Below, piece after piece: positions 4,260 through 11,478 of a stretch of 34,338 bases of DNA (position 1 is its first letter; every line of letters begins with the position of its first letter). The position numbers and the translations under genes are program-made. The DNA is from Kordiimonadaceae bacterium (GTDB lineage Bacteria; Pseudomonadota; Alphaproteobacteria; Sphingomonadales; Emcibacteraceae), in assembly GCA_018675425.1 (NCBI GenBank), contig JABGYD010000057.1:1-34338 (forward strand). Direction: 5' to 3'. The notes beneath the pieces were generated by a model. That model saw nothing but the letters and a program-made list of their open reading frames with translations. It was not told the origin of the DNA and made no database searches.

Positions 4260-4897
4260 TTATGAAGTTTAGTTTTACCTTTAAATTGGCAAAGATCATT
4301 AACCGGGCAGATAGGGCAACTCGGCTTACGGGCTTTACATATGTATCGTCCATGTAAAATCAACCAATGATGAGCGTGAAGAGAAAATTCTTTAGGTATT
4401 TTTTTTTCAAGTTTTAATTCAACTGCAAGAGGTGTCTTTCCAGGAGCCATTTTTGTGCGGTTTGAAACCCGAAAAAGGTGAGTATCAACTGCAATAGTTG
4501 GTTGTCCAAAGGCCATATTTAGTACGACATTAGCTGTTTTTCTTCCAACACCATTTAGTTTTTCTAGATCTTCACGATTTTTTGGCACCAAACCATCGAA
4601 ATTGTCTACCAGCATCTGTGCCGCTTTAATGACGTTTTTAGCCTTGGTATTAAAAAGTCCAATGGTTTTTATATGTTGTTTTAATTTATCTTCACCAAGG
4701 TTGAGCATTTCTTGCGGCGTCGCCACAACTTTAAAAAGACCCTTTGTTGCTCTATTAACACCTATATCAGTGGCTTGCGCGGAGAGAGCTACGGCAACTA
4801 ATAAAGTATAGGGATTTGTATAATCAAGTTCGCCCTTTGGTTCAGGCTCACGTTCTTCAAGTCTTCTAAAAAATTCGTAGACATTATCTTTTTTCAT
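4256..4897 (-). CDS. nth: Endonuclease III (DNA glycosylase/AP lyase)
   Basis: Base-excision repair glycosylase/AP lyase for oxidised pyrimidines, 213 residues. The helix-hairpin-helix LEKLNGVGRKTANVVLN carries catalytic Lys120, and TIAVDTHLFRVSNR carries catalytic Asp138. Both fall at the same numbers as in E. coli Nth. The 4Fe-4S ligands follow the C-x6-C-x2-C-x5-C pattern in the C-terminal segment starting CKARKPSCPICP. Residues 93-114, just before the hairpin (bases 4556-4621), are strikingly similar to a stretch inside the TPR gene at 10546-10611. The gene stands alone on the minus strand, with its 3' end overlapping the lipoprotein gene by four bases. Confidence 0.97.
   Translation of the reverse strand: MKKDNVYEFFRRLEEREPEPKGELDYTNPYTLLVAVALSAQATDIGVNRATKGLFKVVATPQEMLNLGEDKLKQHIKTIGLFNTKAKNVIKAAQMLVDNFDGLVPKNREDLEKLNGVGRKTANVVLNMAFGQPTIAVDTHLFRVSNRTKMAPGKTPLAVELKLEKKIPKEFSLHAHHWLILHGRYICKARKPSCPICPVNDLCQFKGKTKLHN
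4556..4645 (-). repeat. nth copy of a segment shared with the TPR gene
   Basis: Donor-like copy of a short shared segment. In nth it encodes the helix leading to the HhH motif (AQMLVDNFDGLVPKNRED and flanks). Codon-aligned against 10546-10611, the core 66 bases (4556-4621) differ at 11 positions, and 18 of 22 residues match. With one 3-base gap the similarity extends outward to an AAGGCT shared by both copies. Beyond the Leu at residue 114 the two proteins part abruptly. Confidence 0.85.
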
Positions 4898-6110: not shown

Positions 6111-6908
6111 ATGATTAAGAATCGATTAAGAACTATTCTTCTTTCCGCCATTGTTGCTACAGGGACCCTTTCATTAGGCTCCTTAGCAATTGGACAAACA
6201 CTATTAAGTGATGTCCTAAATGAAGGAATTTCCGCCAACCAAATTGCACAACAATCTCAAGCTCGAGTAAATATAATTGTTGATGATACTGATAAGATTA
6301 TCACTGAATATAAAAGTATTCTTAAAACTGTTGATGGTCTCAGAGTATATAATGCGCAGATGGATCGATCCATTGAACGTCAATTGCAGGCAATGGAAGA
6401 ATTAACCGAAAATATCAAAAACGTTACAGATATTAAACGTCAAGTCGAGCCGTTGCTAGTTAGAATGGTTGATGGATTAGAGCAATTTATAAAAAATGAT
6501 ATTCCTTTTCAATTGGAAACACGTTTAGCAGGCCTTGACCGGGTAAAAGATCTCATGACTGATCCAGATGTGGATGCCTCTGAGCGGTTCCGCACTGTGT
6601 TTGAGCTTTATCAGATTGAAAGTGACTACGGAGGGGTTTTTCAAAGTTATCAACAAACTATGGAAGTTGATGGAATAGAAAGATTTGTTGATATGTTAAT
6701 GGTTGGCCGTGTTGCATTACTTTATCAAACGACAGACGGTTTAGTTTCAGGCGCCTACAATAAAGACACTAGAGAGTTTGAAATTGTTGATCAAGGAACT
6801 TACCAAAGGTCAATAAATACAGCAATTAGAATGGCGAATGCAAAAGCGCCTCAAAATACTTTACTATTGCTGCCAATAGCAGCACCGTCTCAAGGGAGTG
6901 TTCAATGA
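6111..6908 (+). CDS. DUF3450 periplasmic protein of TonB2-type operon
   Basis: 265 residues matching the DUF3450 family (PF11932), found as the first gene of TonB2-type clusters. It has a signal peptide (basic MIKNRLR, hydrophobic core, likely cleavage after SLAIGQ near residue 29). A long helical, probably coiled-coil region runs over residues 35-125 (QSQARVNIIVDDTDKII, MDRSIERQLQAMEEL). The family's later motifs include ETRLAGLDRVKDLM, ERFRTVFELYQIESDYG and MLMVGRVALLYQT. Its molecular role is not established; it is thought to work with TtpC in the periplasm. AGGA at 6101-6104 precedes the ATG by six bases. It overlaps the next gene by ATGA. Confidence 0.9.
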   Translation: MIKNRLRTILLSAIVATGTLSLGSLAIGQTLLSDVLNEGISANQIAQQSQARVNIIVDDTDKIITEYKSILKTVDGLRVYNAQMDRSIERQLQAMEELTENIKNVTDIKRQVEPLLVRMVDGLEQFIKNDIPFQLETRLAGLDRVKDLMTDPDVDASERFRTVFELYQIESDYGGVFQSYQQTMEVDGIERFVDMLMVGRVALLYQTTDGLVSGAYNKDTREFEIVDQGTYQRSINTAIRMANAKAPQNTLLLLPIAAPSQGSVQ

Positions 6909-8260
6909 GAAATTTCATAAAAATTATTGTTGCTTTAACTTTAAGTAGTTTTTCTTCTGCTGCAATTGGACAAGAGACTAGTCTTGATGCGTTACTTGAC
7001 ATAGTTCGTCAAGGCAAAGTGAACGAAACTGAAGAGTATCGTCAACGTGAGGCTGAATTCAGAGAGGCAAAGGACAGACAGTCAGGACTTCGTACTGAAG
7101 CTCAGACTGCACAGCGTGCTGAAGAGCGCCGTTCTGATCGGCTAGAGGCACAGTTTGCATCAAATGATGATAAACTTACTGAGCTAGAGCAAGAGTTTAC
7201 AAATGAACTTGGCGCACTGAAAGAAGTTCTTGGTGTACTACAGTTGGTCTCAGGGGATACACGTTCACGTTTAGAATCCTCTTTGACATCCACCCAATTT
7301 GAAGGTCGAGAAGAGTTTATTACTACTCTTATCCAAAAAACTTCATCTGGAACGCAACTTCCAAGCATCGAGGAAATTGAACGTCTTTGGTATGAAGTTC
7401 AGCGTGAAATGACTGAACAAGGTCGTGTAGTTACATTTGATAGAGCTGTTAAATTGAATGATGGTTCTGAAGTTGTTGTTCCTGTAACACGTGTTGGTGT
7501 CTTTAATATTGCCATGGATGGCAAATACCTTAAATATGAACAGGGTCTAGTTGCTGAGCTTGATAGTCAACCAGAATCCCGTTTTATGGATTCCGCGACT
7601 GGGCTTCAAAACTCAACGTCTGGTTTTGCTGCATTTGGTCTTGATCCGTCACGCGGTTCAATTCTTGCACTTCTAATTCAGAGGCCAGGTTTTGAAGAGC
7701 GTATTGAGCAGGGTGGTACAATTGGTAATCTTATTATTGCTGTTGGCGGTATTGGAATACTACTTTTTCTTGAACGCGTAATTTTTCTTTCACTTGCAAG
7801 TGGAAAGGTAAAAGCACAAATTCGCAGCGAAACTATCAATGAGAATAACCCACTAGGGCGTGTGTTAGCAGTTCATGAAGCGAACAGAGGTACTGATGTG
7901 GAAACATTAGAGCTAAAAATTGATGAAGCTATTTTGAAAGAAATGCCACCGCTTGAACGTTTCTTAACAATGATCAAGCTGATTTCTGCTATCGCACCTC
8001 TAATGGGGCTGCTAGGTACAGTGACAGGTATGATTGAAACATTCCAGGCTATGACATTATTTGGTACTGGTGATCCCCAAGTTATGGCTGGCGGTATTTC
8101 CGCTGCGTTGATGACTACTGTTCTTGGTATTTGTGTTGCCCTTCCAATGCTTTTCCTTCATTCACTGGTGAATGGTATGAGCCAAAGAATTGTGCACACT
8201 ATCGAAGAGCAAAGTGCTGGTATCATTGCTGTTCATGCTGAACAGCGTGGGAGTAAGTAA
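6905..8260 (+). CDS. ttpC: TtpC-like MotA/TolQ/ExbB protein with periplasmic coiled coil
   Basis: 451 residues. It has a signal peptide (likely cut after SSAAIGQ near residue 22), a charged coiled-coil region at about 30-120, and a mixed periplasmic domain to about 265. The C-terminal MotA/TolQ/ExbB proton-channel domain has membrane segments near 270-290, 355-378 and 395-420 (APLMGLLGTVTGMIETF and GGISAALMTTVLGICVALP are family-typical). This architecture, a large ExbB-like protein next to a normal ExbB, is that of TtpC, required for Vibrio TonB2 systems. By analogy it couples proton motive force to an outer-membrane transporter through TonB. It is coupled to DUF3450 by a four-base overlap and lies two bases before exbB. 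Confidence 0.9.
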   Translation: MRNFIKIIVALTLSSFSSAAIGQETSLDALLDIVRQGKVNETEEYRQREAEFREAKDRQSGLRTEAQTAQRAEERRSDRLEAQFASNDDKLTELEQEFTNELGALKEVLGVLQLVSGDTRSRLESSLTSTQFEGREEFITTLIQKTSSGTQLPSIEEIERLWYEVQREMTEQGRVVTFDRAVKLNDGSEVVVPVTRVGVFNIAMDGKYLKYEQGLVAELDSQPESRFMDSATGLQNSTSGFAAFGLDPSRGSILALLIQRPGFEERIEQGGTIGNLIIAVGGIGILLFLERVIFLSLASGKVKAQIRSETINENNPLGRVLAVHEANRGTDVETLELKIDEAILKEMPPLERFLTMIKLISAIAPLMGLLGTVTGMIETFQAMTLFGTGDPQVMAGGISAALMTTVLGICVALPMLFLHSLVNGMSQRIVHTIEEQSAGIIAVHAEQRGSK

Positions 8261-8262
8261 CT

Positions 8263-8790
8263 ATGTTAGGCCTAATAAATATATTAGAACTAGTCCGCGA
8301 TTTTATGGAGAGGGGTGGCCCTGTTCTAATTGTGATCTTTGTTGCGATATTAGTATTATGGGCCATGGTTTTGGAGCGGATGATATACTTTAAAACCCGC
8401 CATAAAATCCAAGTAGACGAAGTTATGGGTACTTGGGAGGCGCGCACTGAGCGCACCTCCTGGTACGCCCGTAAAATTCGTGAAGCCATGATTAGTCAAA
8501 TTAATATGGATCTTCGGGGTTCCATCTCTCATATTAAAACACTCGTTGCAGTTATTCCCCTAATGGGACTACTTGGAACAGTGTGGGGTATGATTGAGGT
8601 TTTCGATGTGCTGTCCGTAATGGGGTCAGCGAATGTGAAGGCGATGTCTGCGGGCATTTCTAAAGCGACGATACCTACAATGGCTGGAATGGTAGGTGCC
8701 CTTTCGGGGGTATTTGCATCTTCTTATATACAAGCACGTATAGACAAAGAAGCTGAACTGGTTGAAGATCATTTAACAATGGATCATTAA
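8263..8790 (+). CDS. exbB: ExbB, proton-channel subunit of TonB system
   Basis: 175 residues, the short TonB2-type ExbB. An N-terminal membrane segment covers about residues 18-38 (GGPVLIVIFVAILVLWAMVLER). It has a short cytoplasmic loop and two C-terminal segments carrying VIPLMGLLGTVWGMIEVFD and AGISKATIPTMAGMVGALSG. Thr residues in the latter correspond to the polar pore lining of the family. Five ExbB subunits normally surround an ExbD dimer in the inner membrane. GGAG at 8250-8253 lies nine bases before the ATG. The gene starts two bases after ttpC and is followed ten bases later by exbD. Confidence 0.95.
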   Translation: MLGLINILELVRDFMERGGPVLIVIFVAILVLWAMVLERMIYFKTRHKIQVDEVMGTWEARTERTSWYARKIREAMISQINMDLRGSISHIKTLVAVIPLMGLLGTVWGMIEVFDVLSVMGSANVKAMSAGISKATIPTMAGMVGALSGVFASSYIQARIDKEAELVEDHLTMDH

Positions 8791-8800
8791 GAGAGATAAA

Positions 8801-9199
8801 ATGCGTAAACACAAAAAAAACCAAGAAGAAGCAGCAATTGATATGACACCGATGCTTGACATCGTCTTCATCATGCTGATTTTCTTCATCGTCACTGCCT
8901 CCTTTCTCAAAGAGGCAGGTATTGAAGTTAACCGTCCGGAAGGTTCATCTGGTGAGCCACAGGAAAAAGCAAATATTATGATTGCTGTTACTGATGGTGA
9001 TGAAGTATGGATGGAAAAGCGTCGCATCGACGTTAGGGCTGTTCGTGCCAACGTTGAACGCCTTAAAGCTGAAAATCCTGAAGGTACAATCGTTATTCAG
9101 GCTGACATAAAATCGACTACAGGTATTGTTGCCGAAATTATGGATTCTCTGAATGCTGCAGGTTATACGGATCACGTGCTGGCAACACAACTTAACTAA
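8801..9199 (+). CDS. exbD: ExbD, TonB-system stator protein
   Basis: 132 residues. One membrane segment runs at about residues 20-41, with the essential protonatable Asp20 in DMTPMLDIVFIMLIFFIV, matching Asp25 of E. coli ExbD. A charged cytoplasmic N-terminus (MRKHKKNQEE) precedes it, and a periplasmic domain of about 90 residues follows (EGTIVIQADIKSTTGIVAEI, AGYTDHVLATQLN). GAGAG precedes the start by a few bases. The spacing of 10 and 11 bases to its neighbours shows one transcript. Confidence 0.96.
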   Translation: MRKHKKNQEEAAIDMTPMLDIVFIMLIFFIVTASFLKEAGIEVNRPEGSSGEPQEKANIMIAVTDGDEVWMEKRRIDVRAVRANVERLKAENPEGTIVIQADIKSTTGIVAEIMDSLNAAGYTDHVLATQLN

Positions 9200-9210
9200 G
9201 GGAGAATGTA

Positions 9211-9813
9211 ATGGTTGCACGATATGTTATTTCATTTAGTTTTGCGGCATTAATTACTTTTGGATTATTCTTTGGCATGCAGTGGCTGATTTCTACTGGT
9301 GATATTGAATTAGAGGATGCAGGAAAAAGAATTCGTGTTGAAATGGGGCAAGTAAGAGCAGTGGAAGAAGTTCGTCAAATTGAGCGAAAACCTGATATTC
9401 CCGAAGAAGTTGAAGCGGCACCTGATATGAATATTGATATGTCTTCGTCTGTAGATAATGTTGGTGGTGGTGTCGAAATTGGCTCAGCTGCGATGGAAGT
9501 AACTGCAATATCTACTGGTGTTGGTGGTTTCTCTGCTACAGATGGTGAGTACTTACCTATTGTCCGCGTTCCACCTCAGTATCCTGCTCGTGCAGCAGAG
9601 AATGGAATCGAGGGCTACGTGATCGTCACATTTACCGTAACTGCTGAAGGTACGACAAAAGATGTGGTTGCAATCGAGTCAAGTCATAATATGTTTGTCA
9701 GAGCAGCAGTGAAAGCAGCAGGAAAATATAAATATAAACCAAGAGTTGTAGATGGCGAACCGATTGAATCGTCGGGTGTCCGGGTTCGTATTGAATTTGA
9801 ATTGGCTGATTAA
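9211..9813 (+). CDS. tonB: TonB, energy-transducing periplasmic protein (TonB2 type)
   Basis: 200 residues. An N-terminal membrane anchor spans about residues 7-27. The C-terminal TonB domain, from about residue 110, contains VRVPPQYPARAAENGIEGYV (the YPARA region of TonB) and ends YKYKPRVVDGEPIESSGVRV. The linker between anchor and domain (about 50-105) is short, acidic and glycine-rich, without the long Pro-Glu/Pro-Lys spacer of E. coli TonB. That fits the TonB2 type, whose reach is thought to be aided by TtpC. It contacts TonB boxes of outer-membrane receptors; none is encoded in this window. GGGAG lies just before the start. Confidence 0.94.
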   Translation: MVARYVISFSFAALITFGLFFGMQWLISTGDIELEDAGKRIRVEMGQVRAVEEVRQIERKPDIPEEVEAAPDMNIDMSSSVDNVGGGVEIGSAAMEVTAISTGVGGFSATDGEYLPIVRVPPQYPARAAENGIEGYVIVTFTVTAEGTTKDVVAIESSHNMFVRAAVKAAGKYKYKPRVVDGEPIESSGVRVRIEFELAD

Positions 9814-9834: not shown

Positions 9835-11391
9835 ATGAAAAATCTAAGAAAAGTGTCTAGAACTCTTTTAATAGCCACCGTAATGAGTGGTGTTGTAGTT
9901 ATAGCTGGCAAAATTCCAGCGATAGAAAATTATTCTGGTCAATATGCTAAGGCTCAGGAGCTTGGTGTATCTTCTCAATCTAGAACTGCTGCTGCTGCTG
10001 CTGCTAGGGCAGCACGTCCTAGAATTAGGTCGGTCCCTTCCACCGGTGAACGGGCTGGAAAAATTCTAGTAAAGGCTCAAGAATATATTTCAGAAGAAAT
10101 TCCATTAATTGCTGAAGCTAAAGAGCTCTTGGTTAAACAAAGAATTGAACGGTGGAATTCCACTGAAACAGCTGGGTATTACCAAATAATGTCTTCTATT
10201 GCGGGCTCAGAAGATGATTTGGAAACTGTTGTTTTATATTATAAAAAACTACTAGATATCAAAACTATACCCTATAGCCTGAGGGACCAGCTTACATTCA
10301 GTATTGGCCAGATAGAATTTTCAAATGAAAATTATGCGCTAGGTTTGAGTTACTTATATGATTGGCTTAAATATCAACCGGACCCAAGTGTTACTCAGTT
10401 AGAAATGTTTGCAAATGCGCACTATACAATTGGTCAAAATGCGCCAGATGAATCTCCTGAAATGGTGAAAAATTATCGCCTTGCCATTGAATATATAAAT
10501 TGGGTAATTAAAAAATCGAAGGCTGCGGCAAATATCATCATAAAGGCACAAATGCTTGTAGATGAATTTGATGGTTTGGTGCCAGAAAATCGCGAAGACC
10601 AACAAAAACTAACCGCAGCAACAGCCTTAGCGGGCAAGGAAATAAAGCCAGAAAAAGAAAATTGGTATCAGGTTTTGCGGGCTCTTCATAATTCTCTCGG
10701 TGAAACCCCAAAGGTTCTCGAATATGCTGAATTTTTAGCTACAACGTGGCCACAGAAGCAATATTGGGTACAGCTTTCTAATCTATATGCGATGGCTAGT
10801 TCAGAAGAAAATATGAGTGAAGTCGAAGTGTTAAAATTTGAAAAAAAACAATTAGCAGCTATGGAATTAGCGCATAGACAAAATATGCTTGATACCGGGC
10901 GTGAATTAGAAACGATGGCCCAGCTTTATCTCTATCATGATAGTCCCTATCAATCTTCTAAAACGATGGCGAAATCGTTGAACGAAGGTCTTTCAGAAAA
11001 GAGCCAAAGAAACCTTGAGCTGCAATCAACCGCATTTATTAACGGTAAAGATCTAGTTGATGCCGTAGGACCTTTAAATGCAGCTGCCGAATTGGATGAA
11101 GATGGTAATCTTTATATGAGACTTGCTAACGTATACCTTAGTCTAGATAATTATGAAGGAGCGGCAGAAGCAATTTCTAAAGCCCTCGTTAAGGGTGGCT
11201 TAAGCCGTCCAGATCAATCAAGTCTTCTTCAGGGACAGGCTTACCTTGCATTAGAAAATTTTGATGGTGCCCGTAAGTCCTTCCGTGAAGCAGCAAAGGA
11301 TGATAGATCTGAAAAGATGGCACGTAATATGCTGAGATATGTTGATTCTGAAGAAAAAAGGATTAAGGATATTAGAGAATATCTGTCGTAA
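9835..11391 (+). CDS. TPR-repeat protein of the TonB operon
   Basis: 518 residues. An N-terminal hydrophobic segment (about 10-27) gives a signal or anchor. It is followed by a Ser/Ala/Arg-rich stretch with a six-Ala run, then helical TPR-like repeats to the end (clear ones are EDGNLYMRLANVYLSLDNYE and the next LLQGQAYLALENFDGARKSF). It is the last gene of the operon, as in TonB2 clusters of Vibrio and Shewanella, and is probably periplasmic and protein-binding. Residues 229-259 are odd: they carry a segment homologous to endonuclease III (AQMLVDEFDGLVPENRED) placed between two repeats. The neighbouring KENWYQVLRALH and WPQKQYWVQLSNLYA read like ordinary family sequence. The frame stays open throughout. 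AGGAAAG precedes the ATG, and a strong terminator follows. Confidence 0.9.
   Translation: MKNLRKVSRTLLIATVMSGVVVIAGKIPAIENYSGQYAKAQELGVSSQSRTAAAAAARAARPRIRSVPSTGERAGKILVKAQEYISEEIPLIAEAKELLVKQRIERWNSTETAGYYQIMSSIAGSEDDLETVVLYYKKLLDIKTIPYSLRDQLTFSIGQIEFSNENYALGLSYLYDWLKYQPDPSVTQLEMFANAHYTIGQNAPDESPEMVKNYRLAIEYINWVIKKSKAAANIIIKAQMLVDEFDGLVPENREDQQKLTAATALAGKEIKPEKENWYQVLRALHNSLGETPKVLEYAEFLATTWPQKQYWVQLSNLYAMASSEENMSEVEVLKFEKKQLAAMELAHRQNMLDTGRELETMAQLYLYHDSPYQSSKTMAKSLNEGLSEKSQRNLELQSTAFINGKDLVDAVGPLNAAAELDEDGNLYMRLANVYLSLDNYEGAAEAISKALVKGGLSRPDQSSLLQGQAYLALENFDGARKSFREAAKDDRSEKMARNMLRYVDSEEKRIKDIREYLS
9988..10005 (+). repeat. (GCT)6 trinucleotide tract
   Basis: Six uninterrupted GCT codons encode six alanines just after the predicted signal region of the TPR protein. 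Unit gain or loss would keep the frame and only change the alanine run. It is the only perfect codon repeat of this length I noticed in the window. Confidence 0.8.
10519..10611 (+). repeat. nth-derived segment inside the TPR gene
   Basis: Codons for residues 229-259 of the TPR protein. The core, 10546-10611, matches nth 4556-4621 (opposite strand) at 55 of 66 bases and 18 of 22 residues, in the same codon phase. Six of the ten differing codons are synonymous. Similarity stops at the Leu codon ending at 10611, where nth continues into its HhH motif and this gene continues TAATALAG. The relationship is seen directly; the direction of copying (nth to TPR) is inferred because the segment is at home in Nth. 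Confidence 0.85.
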
Positions 11392-11412
11392 CCACTAAAA
11401 AGCACTAAAATG

Positions 11413-11447
11413 AAAAAAGCAGGAAGACTTTTCTTCCTGCTTTTTTT
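11413..11447 (+). terminator. Rho-independent terminator of the TonB operon
   Basis: GCAGGAAGA (11419-11427) pairs perfectly with TCTTCCTGC (11432-11440) around a four-base loop, followed by seven T. A run of A on the left extends the pairing. It lies 22 bases after the TPR stop codon. Confidence 0.95.
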
Positions 11448-11478
11448 ATATTTGTTAAAATTTAATATATCTTCTTTT

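Follow-up and report, generated by a model that had tools for sequence, protein, structure and literature searches.

In-frame insertion of a short nth copy in the TPR gene of a TonB2-type operon in a Kordiimonadaceae bacterium

The window studied here, that is, the whole stretch of DNA analysed (34,338 nucleotides, positions 1 to 34,338 of contig JABGYD010000057.1 in assembly GCA_018675425.1 of a Kordiimonadaceae bacterium), contains a TPR gene in which a short copy of nth, the gene of endonuclease III, is inserted in frame. Among the genomes compared, this one is the only carrier of the insertion, and the copying ran from nth to the TPR gene. We consider it probable (about 0.8) that a piece of the genome's own nth was copied into this TtpD-like gene by one event, after the split from the sampled relatives, that the frame was left open, and that the helical hairpin predicted to result is tolerated. 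Positions of the features are collected in Table 1.

Table 1. Positions in the window of nth, the TPR gene and the parts of the insertion
Feature	Position	Strand	Basis and remarks
nth, endonuclease III, intact, 213 aa	4256..4897	-	Pfam HhH-GPD 2.1e-22, HHH 1.2e-8, EndIII_4Fe-2S 2.4e-5
Donor segment (core) within nth	4555..4622	-	blastn
Upstream genes of the operon: DUF3450, MotA/ExbB (451 aa), MotA/ExbB (175 aa), ExbD, TonB_C	6111..9813	+	Pfam
Recipient TPR gene (product 518 aa), closing the TonB2-type operon in the ttpD place	9835..11391	+	alignment of relatives, Foldseek
AAGGCT, weak candidate for 5'-junction microhomology	10519..10524	+	occurs as well at 4640-4645 (minus strand), codons 85-86 of nth
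Insertion, 114 bp = 38 codons, TPR residues 231-268, in this genome only among those compared	10525..10638	+	MAFFT alignment
Widest stretch alignable to the nth of some relative	10530..10615	+	own nth only 10545-10612
Insert core copied from nth, 57/68 bp identical to own nth	10545..10612	+	BLASTN E 8e-17 (gene to gene), 1.2e-14 (own genome)
Last 23 bp of the insert (3' tail), no source found	10616..10638	+	shuffle test, genome search

The likeness involves TPR residues 238-259 and Nth residues 93-114, which align without gaps and are identical at 18 of 22 positions. At the DNA level 55 of the 66 bases agree, the codon phase is equal in both genes, and six of the ten changed codons are synonymous. 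All these counts had been put forward in the original prediction, made from the sequence alone, and all were reproduced; the two genes are indeed on opposite strands, and the distance then given as about 6 kb is 5.6 kb from the end of nth (4897) to the start of the insert (10525). At the protein level, BLASTP finds 21 of 29 residues identical (E 5e-10). Chance is ruled out for this match, since the insert DNA finds nth in its own 2.2 Mb genome with E 1.2e-14, and the next match stands at E 0.23. Used in turn as a query against the genome, Nth, which aligns to the solved endonuclease III 2abk with E 2.8e-74, hits the TPR gene and, apart from its own gene, only one distant homologue (28% identity). 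Within its own genome, nth is the sole counterpart of the insert.

A self-comparison covering 353,502 of the 2,202,078 bases of the genome gave six matches at E<=1e-4, among which the TPR/nth pair is the only one to link two long, otherwise unrelated reading frames. The idea that such copies are a habit of this genome was considered and, for the compared portion, rejected: the other five matches are three palindromes and two repeats, the latter with longest frames of at most 61 aa. Capture of nth sequence is apparently a single event in this genome. A 153-bp repeat with 94% identity is present in two copies in the compared 353 kb (L108 and L111, at G000:C66:77264-77416 and 120282-120434); its longest frames are 31 and 61 aa, and it is possibly an RNA element or a small repeat. 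Outside the window, an inverted 117-bp match (71%) joins G000:C63:68412-68527 and 152684-152799, where the longest frames are 33 and 56 aa.

In the alignment of TPR proteins, the inserted residues, AANIIIKAQMLVDEFDGLVPENREDQQKLTAATALAGK, are absent from all 31 other rows, which represent 29 genomes, one paralogue and one duplicate record, and they form the sole run of at least three residues common to at most one other row. Relatives found in the genus search match the protein as two pieces, about 1-230 and 270-518, which adjoin in the target. Ten of the 29 other genomes belong to the genus, which has 12 further members in all; 18 more are from the family, and the last, G051, comes from a different family in the order. 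The genus members G005 and G011 gave no TPR match and are hence outside the alignment. The two extra rows are the paralogue G007b and JAJFIR010000031.1, a duplicate record of G007. The row of G002 is probably a paralogue too (42% identity, like G007b), the end of its nearer copy (73%) lying at a contig edge. A TPR match of some kind exists in 75 of 99 genomes, the present one included, and those left out of the alignment are mostly the weaker matches. A diverged additional member of this TPR family is encoded in G007 (L015, on G007:C30; 42% identity), without the insert.

The donor segment, in contrast, is present in all 30 Nth compared (the own protein and 29 others, drawn from 56 genomes with an nth match), and since it is absent from the other TPR rows, copying must have run from nth to the TPR gene. 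The proposal that a short nth copy, in an insertion of roughly 40 residues, had entered the gene in this lineage is thus supported: the insertion counts 38 residues, and the contrary picture, a segment belonging to the normal fold of TPR orthologues, was looked for in the 31 rows and not seen.

The recipient occupies the last place of a TonB2-type operon. Its TPR matches in Pfam are weak (1.5e-5, below the curated cut-off), and the 50 Foldseek matches listed are generic TPR superhelices. According to PMC6957404, the Vibrio TonB2 operon has ttpB2 (DUF3450) first and ttpD2 (TPR) last, after tonB2, and the TtpD2 of Vibrio vulnificus is essential to TonB2 iron uptake. The present gene order fits this arrangement, the TPR protein coming last, after tonB, in an operon that opens with a DUF3450 gene; by operon place and TPR content, the recipient is TtpD-like, a probable iron-uptake helper. 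It differs from the Vibrio protein, to which it is likened on these two grounds, by its length (518 against 425 aa) and by the insert, which no other compared genome has. As TtpD2 is poorly conserved in the same account (about 35% between Vibrio species; PMC6957404), such a gene would be a plausible place for a tolerated insert. Directly past the TPR stop codon, an imperfect palindrome (11404-11455) is possibly the terminator of the operon.

What the insert adds to the protein was approached by AlphaFold2 modelling of the TPR protein, as had been proposed at the outset. In the protein of G003, which has no insert (mean pLDDT 87.1), helices are predicted at 208-230 and 237-249. The insert-bearing protein (mean pLDDT 87.7) is predicted to have a helix at 208-244, a turn at 245-252 and helices at 253-266 and 275-287, and the ten-residue blocks of the insert region have pLDDT values of 84-91. 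Most likely, the insert is a small added helical hairpin between two repeats, in which one repeat helix is lengthened and a second short helix appears. Since the insert is covered by none of the other aligned sequences, its fold is predicted from a single one, and the model may be leaning on the Nth motif known from training. In the solved structure to which the own Nth aligns, the equivalent stretch is, we assume, a helix-turn-helix ahead of the hairpin. The likeness between insert and Nth stops before GVGRKTA, and the DNA-binding hairpin and the catalytic residues were hence not carried into the insert. Endonuclease III would thus have supplied a helix-turn-helix stretch, and DNA-binding function is not expected in the TPR protein.

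A transplanted helix-turn-helix could have been kept because it is functional, for instance by altering the surface with which the TtpD-like superhelix contacts its TonB2 partners. We regard this as rather unlikely. Outside the insert, the TPR gene is under purifying selection as judged by its comparison with G003 (dN 0.26, dS 1.29). For the insert itself, the comparison of the two copies that had been suggested yielded a dS value (0.66), and a divergence of 11 in 66 bases does not suffice for an estimate of selection on it.

Which nth served as donor is the next question. Compared over the 66 bases, the own nth comes first with 55 identities, followed by a small margin by those of G003 and G005, with 53 each. 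When the insert was searched against 396 genomes of the order, the own nth was the best match outside the insert (74.3 bits, against 66.2 for G003), and in the 12 other genomes with a match, all matches lie inside nth; among 385 genomes of the class, no match was found at E<=1e-4 beyond the own genome. Both sets were drawn evenly from larger groups, and the two best candidates were scored per genome. Within this sample, a foreign donor was rejected, as none beats the own nth. Furthermore, the insert and the own Nth have in common a Leu103 (codon TTG) that occurs in none of the 29 other Nth, and a maximum-likelihood tree groups the insert with the own nth (ultrafast bootstrap 85, a moderate support on 66 sites). 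Taken with the order-wide search, the shared leucine and the tree make the nth of the own lineage the likely and well supported donor. The two genes are also linked, on opposite strands and 9-16 kb apart, in all six other genus genomes that have both on one contig, so that donor and target probably lay near each other before the event.

The 11 bases at which the insert and the own nth differ can be sorted by comparison with the nth of 11 other genus members: three are changes of the own nth, two are changes of the insert, and six are ambiguous or weakly polarised. The own nth is derived at codon 98 position 3, codon 99 position 1 and codon 106 position 1, its state occurring in none of the 11 others; at codon 106, the insert retains Glu where the own Nth has Lys. 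Conversely, the insert is derived at codon 111 position 2 and codon 112 position 1, again with a state seen in none of the 11, the outcome being a Gln in place of Leu111 and the change E112Q. Polarised in this way, both copies are seen to have changed since the copying. The own Nth is itself unusual near the HhH motif, with Asn99, Leu103 and Lys106 where the 11 other genus Nth have mostly Asp/Glu, Val and Glu; at position 115 it has Asn, and the other 29 Nth have Pro or Ala.

Synonymous divergence offers an approximate idea of age. Between the insert and the own nth, dS is 0.66 (13.7 sites); between the own nth and that of G003 it reaches 1.89 in these codons and 1.28 when the gene is taken in full. 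With 0.84 between the insert and the nth of G003, the margin to the own value is narrow, and the age is therefore rough. The initial view of the piece as old and either tolerated or selected holds in part: its age is only partly borne out by these values, and toleration fits as well as selection.

These same figures bear on the possibility that the donated nth came from a sister species or strain outside the sample, entering by uptake of short DNA (natural transformation, for example) followed by illegitimate integration. The divergence from the own nth would then date the split of the strains and not the insertion, and a recent copy from such a strain would give a similar dS picture. It would also explain why the insert keeps, at codons 98, 99 and 106, states common in relatives where the own nth is derived, and the nth of another genome, G003, the closest relative found, is nearly as close to the insert as the own one (53 versus 55 of 66 bases; dS 0.84 versus 0.66). 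However, both the tree and Leu103 link the insert with the own lineage. Moreover, L111Q and E112Q break positions kept in 30/30 and 29/30 Nth, so part of the change should have come after release from Nth duty, and an internal donor, lying near its target, requires no transfer. We tend to doubt a sister donor for these reasons, and find it quite unlikely.

Another concern is that the genome, sole carrier of the insert among those compared, is a single draft in 94 contigs with 2.61% contamination, and the insert could be an assembly artefact or chimera. This is very improbable. None of the nth compared has the sequence of the insert (over 66 bases the own nth departs from it at 11, the 29 others at 13 or more), the insert preserves the frame of a gene of 518 codons, and this gene sits inside a contig of 153.5 kb, while the linkage of nth and the TPR gene recurs in six relatives. 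The original prediction had already held its divergence against a chimera, and we agree.

The copied stretch does not fill the whole insertion, the own nth being alignable to 68 of its 114 bases. Counting from the first base of the insert, the nth matches of G010, G025, G008, G029, G028 and G020 start at base 6 and that of G019 at base 3, and the match of the G003 nth ends at base 91. In a shuffle test, the 5' 21 bp of the insert gave p 0.018 with the own nth (0.031 against random windows) and 0.001 with that of G009, the value being above 0.06 for 7 of the 12 nth, so that an extension of the nth likeness beyond the core on the 5' side is no more than suggested. The 3' tail has no significant likeness to the sequence downstream in nth (p 0.32 for the own; lowest 0.11, for G003), and the 24-mer 10612-10635 has no second site in the genome with up to 3 mismatches.

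As to the junctions, the hexamer AAGGCT just ahead of the insert is a weak candidate for a 5' microhomology. An AAA + GCN form is found at this place in 3 of the 10 genus TPR rows (G007, G004 and G001) and is absent in the nearest, G003 and G008; used as the microhomology, AAGGCT would leave one extra codon to explain. On the 3' side, neither microhomology nor target duplication was found. A 13-nt direct repeat near the ends of the insert (85%, spacing 102, p 0.047 against random windows) was not accepted as a target-site duplication, and the insert is not bounded by inverted repeats: between 10480 and 10700 a single palindrome was found, one of 13 nt that lies upstream (10484-10503). Although elements inserting in frame inside protein genes are known, such as the Rickettsia palindromic elements, a mobile palindromic or transposable element carrying an nth-like piece (RPE-like or MITE) is the least credible origin and was rejected, as the own genome matches at E below 0.2 are the insert and nth alone, that is, two sites of which one is nth itself, with no terminal inverted repeats and with a direct repeat no better than that just described.

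We thus return to copying from the own nth, and most likely to a one-off template-switch or microhomology copy which happened to be in frame and was tolerated. After the split from the sampled relatives, some 70-86 bp of nth would have been copied from the opposite strand, a few kb off, and would have landed where two helical repeats of the TtpD-like gene meet. This could have occurred in a single fork-local event of template switching or microhomology, or through a short single strand of nth pairing with the replication fork, and the same event would have left the 23-bp tail. With the same codon phase and a total of 114 bp, the frame stayed open, the insert is translated within the TPR protein, and the helix-turn-helix form would, according to the model, be kept. 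The TPR protein presumably still works with the insert, which would be tolerated and perhaps mildly useful.

Short ectopic or templated insertions reportedly arise in Acinetobacter baylyi by short-patch double illegitimate recombination. The present case resembles them in that a short piece of intragenomic DNA is found at an unrelated site, with no mobile element and scant homology at the ends. It differs in that the product has lasted, in frame, in a gene of a conserved operon, with donor and copy both readable, and in that its source lies on the opposite strand at a distance of a few kb, with a doubtful microhomology at 5' and none found at 3'. Rickettsia palindromic elements sit in frame within protein genes and likewise bring an apparently tolerated gain of tens of residues; the insert, unlike them, is neither repetitive nor palindromic, and its source is an ordinary gene, nth. 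In the literature on copying mechanisms, in-frame insertions, chimeric genes and the operon, consulted without nth as a query, we met with no account of a TPR gene that carries a piece of nth.

The growth of proteins by capture of short coding pieces of unrelated genes has often been proposed. To our knowledge, it is seldom that a single case lets one read the donor, the recipient, the empty site, the direction and the relative age together. Here the first four are readable and the age only roughly; the mechanism is probably ordinary, and it is the completeness of the record that is unusual. With its Glu at 106, the insert is also a small fossil of an earlier state of nth, since lost from the living gene of this genome, and it provides an example, open to testing, of how a peptide already able to fold was moved from one protein to another. 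If the functional reading were true, a helical-repeat protein would have been caught in the act of growing, having taken over a ready-folded helical hairpin that belonged to an unrelated enzyme.
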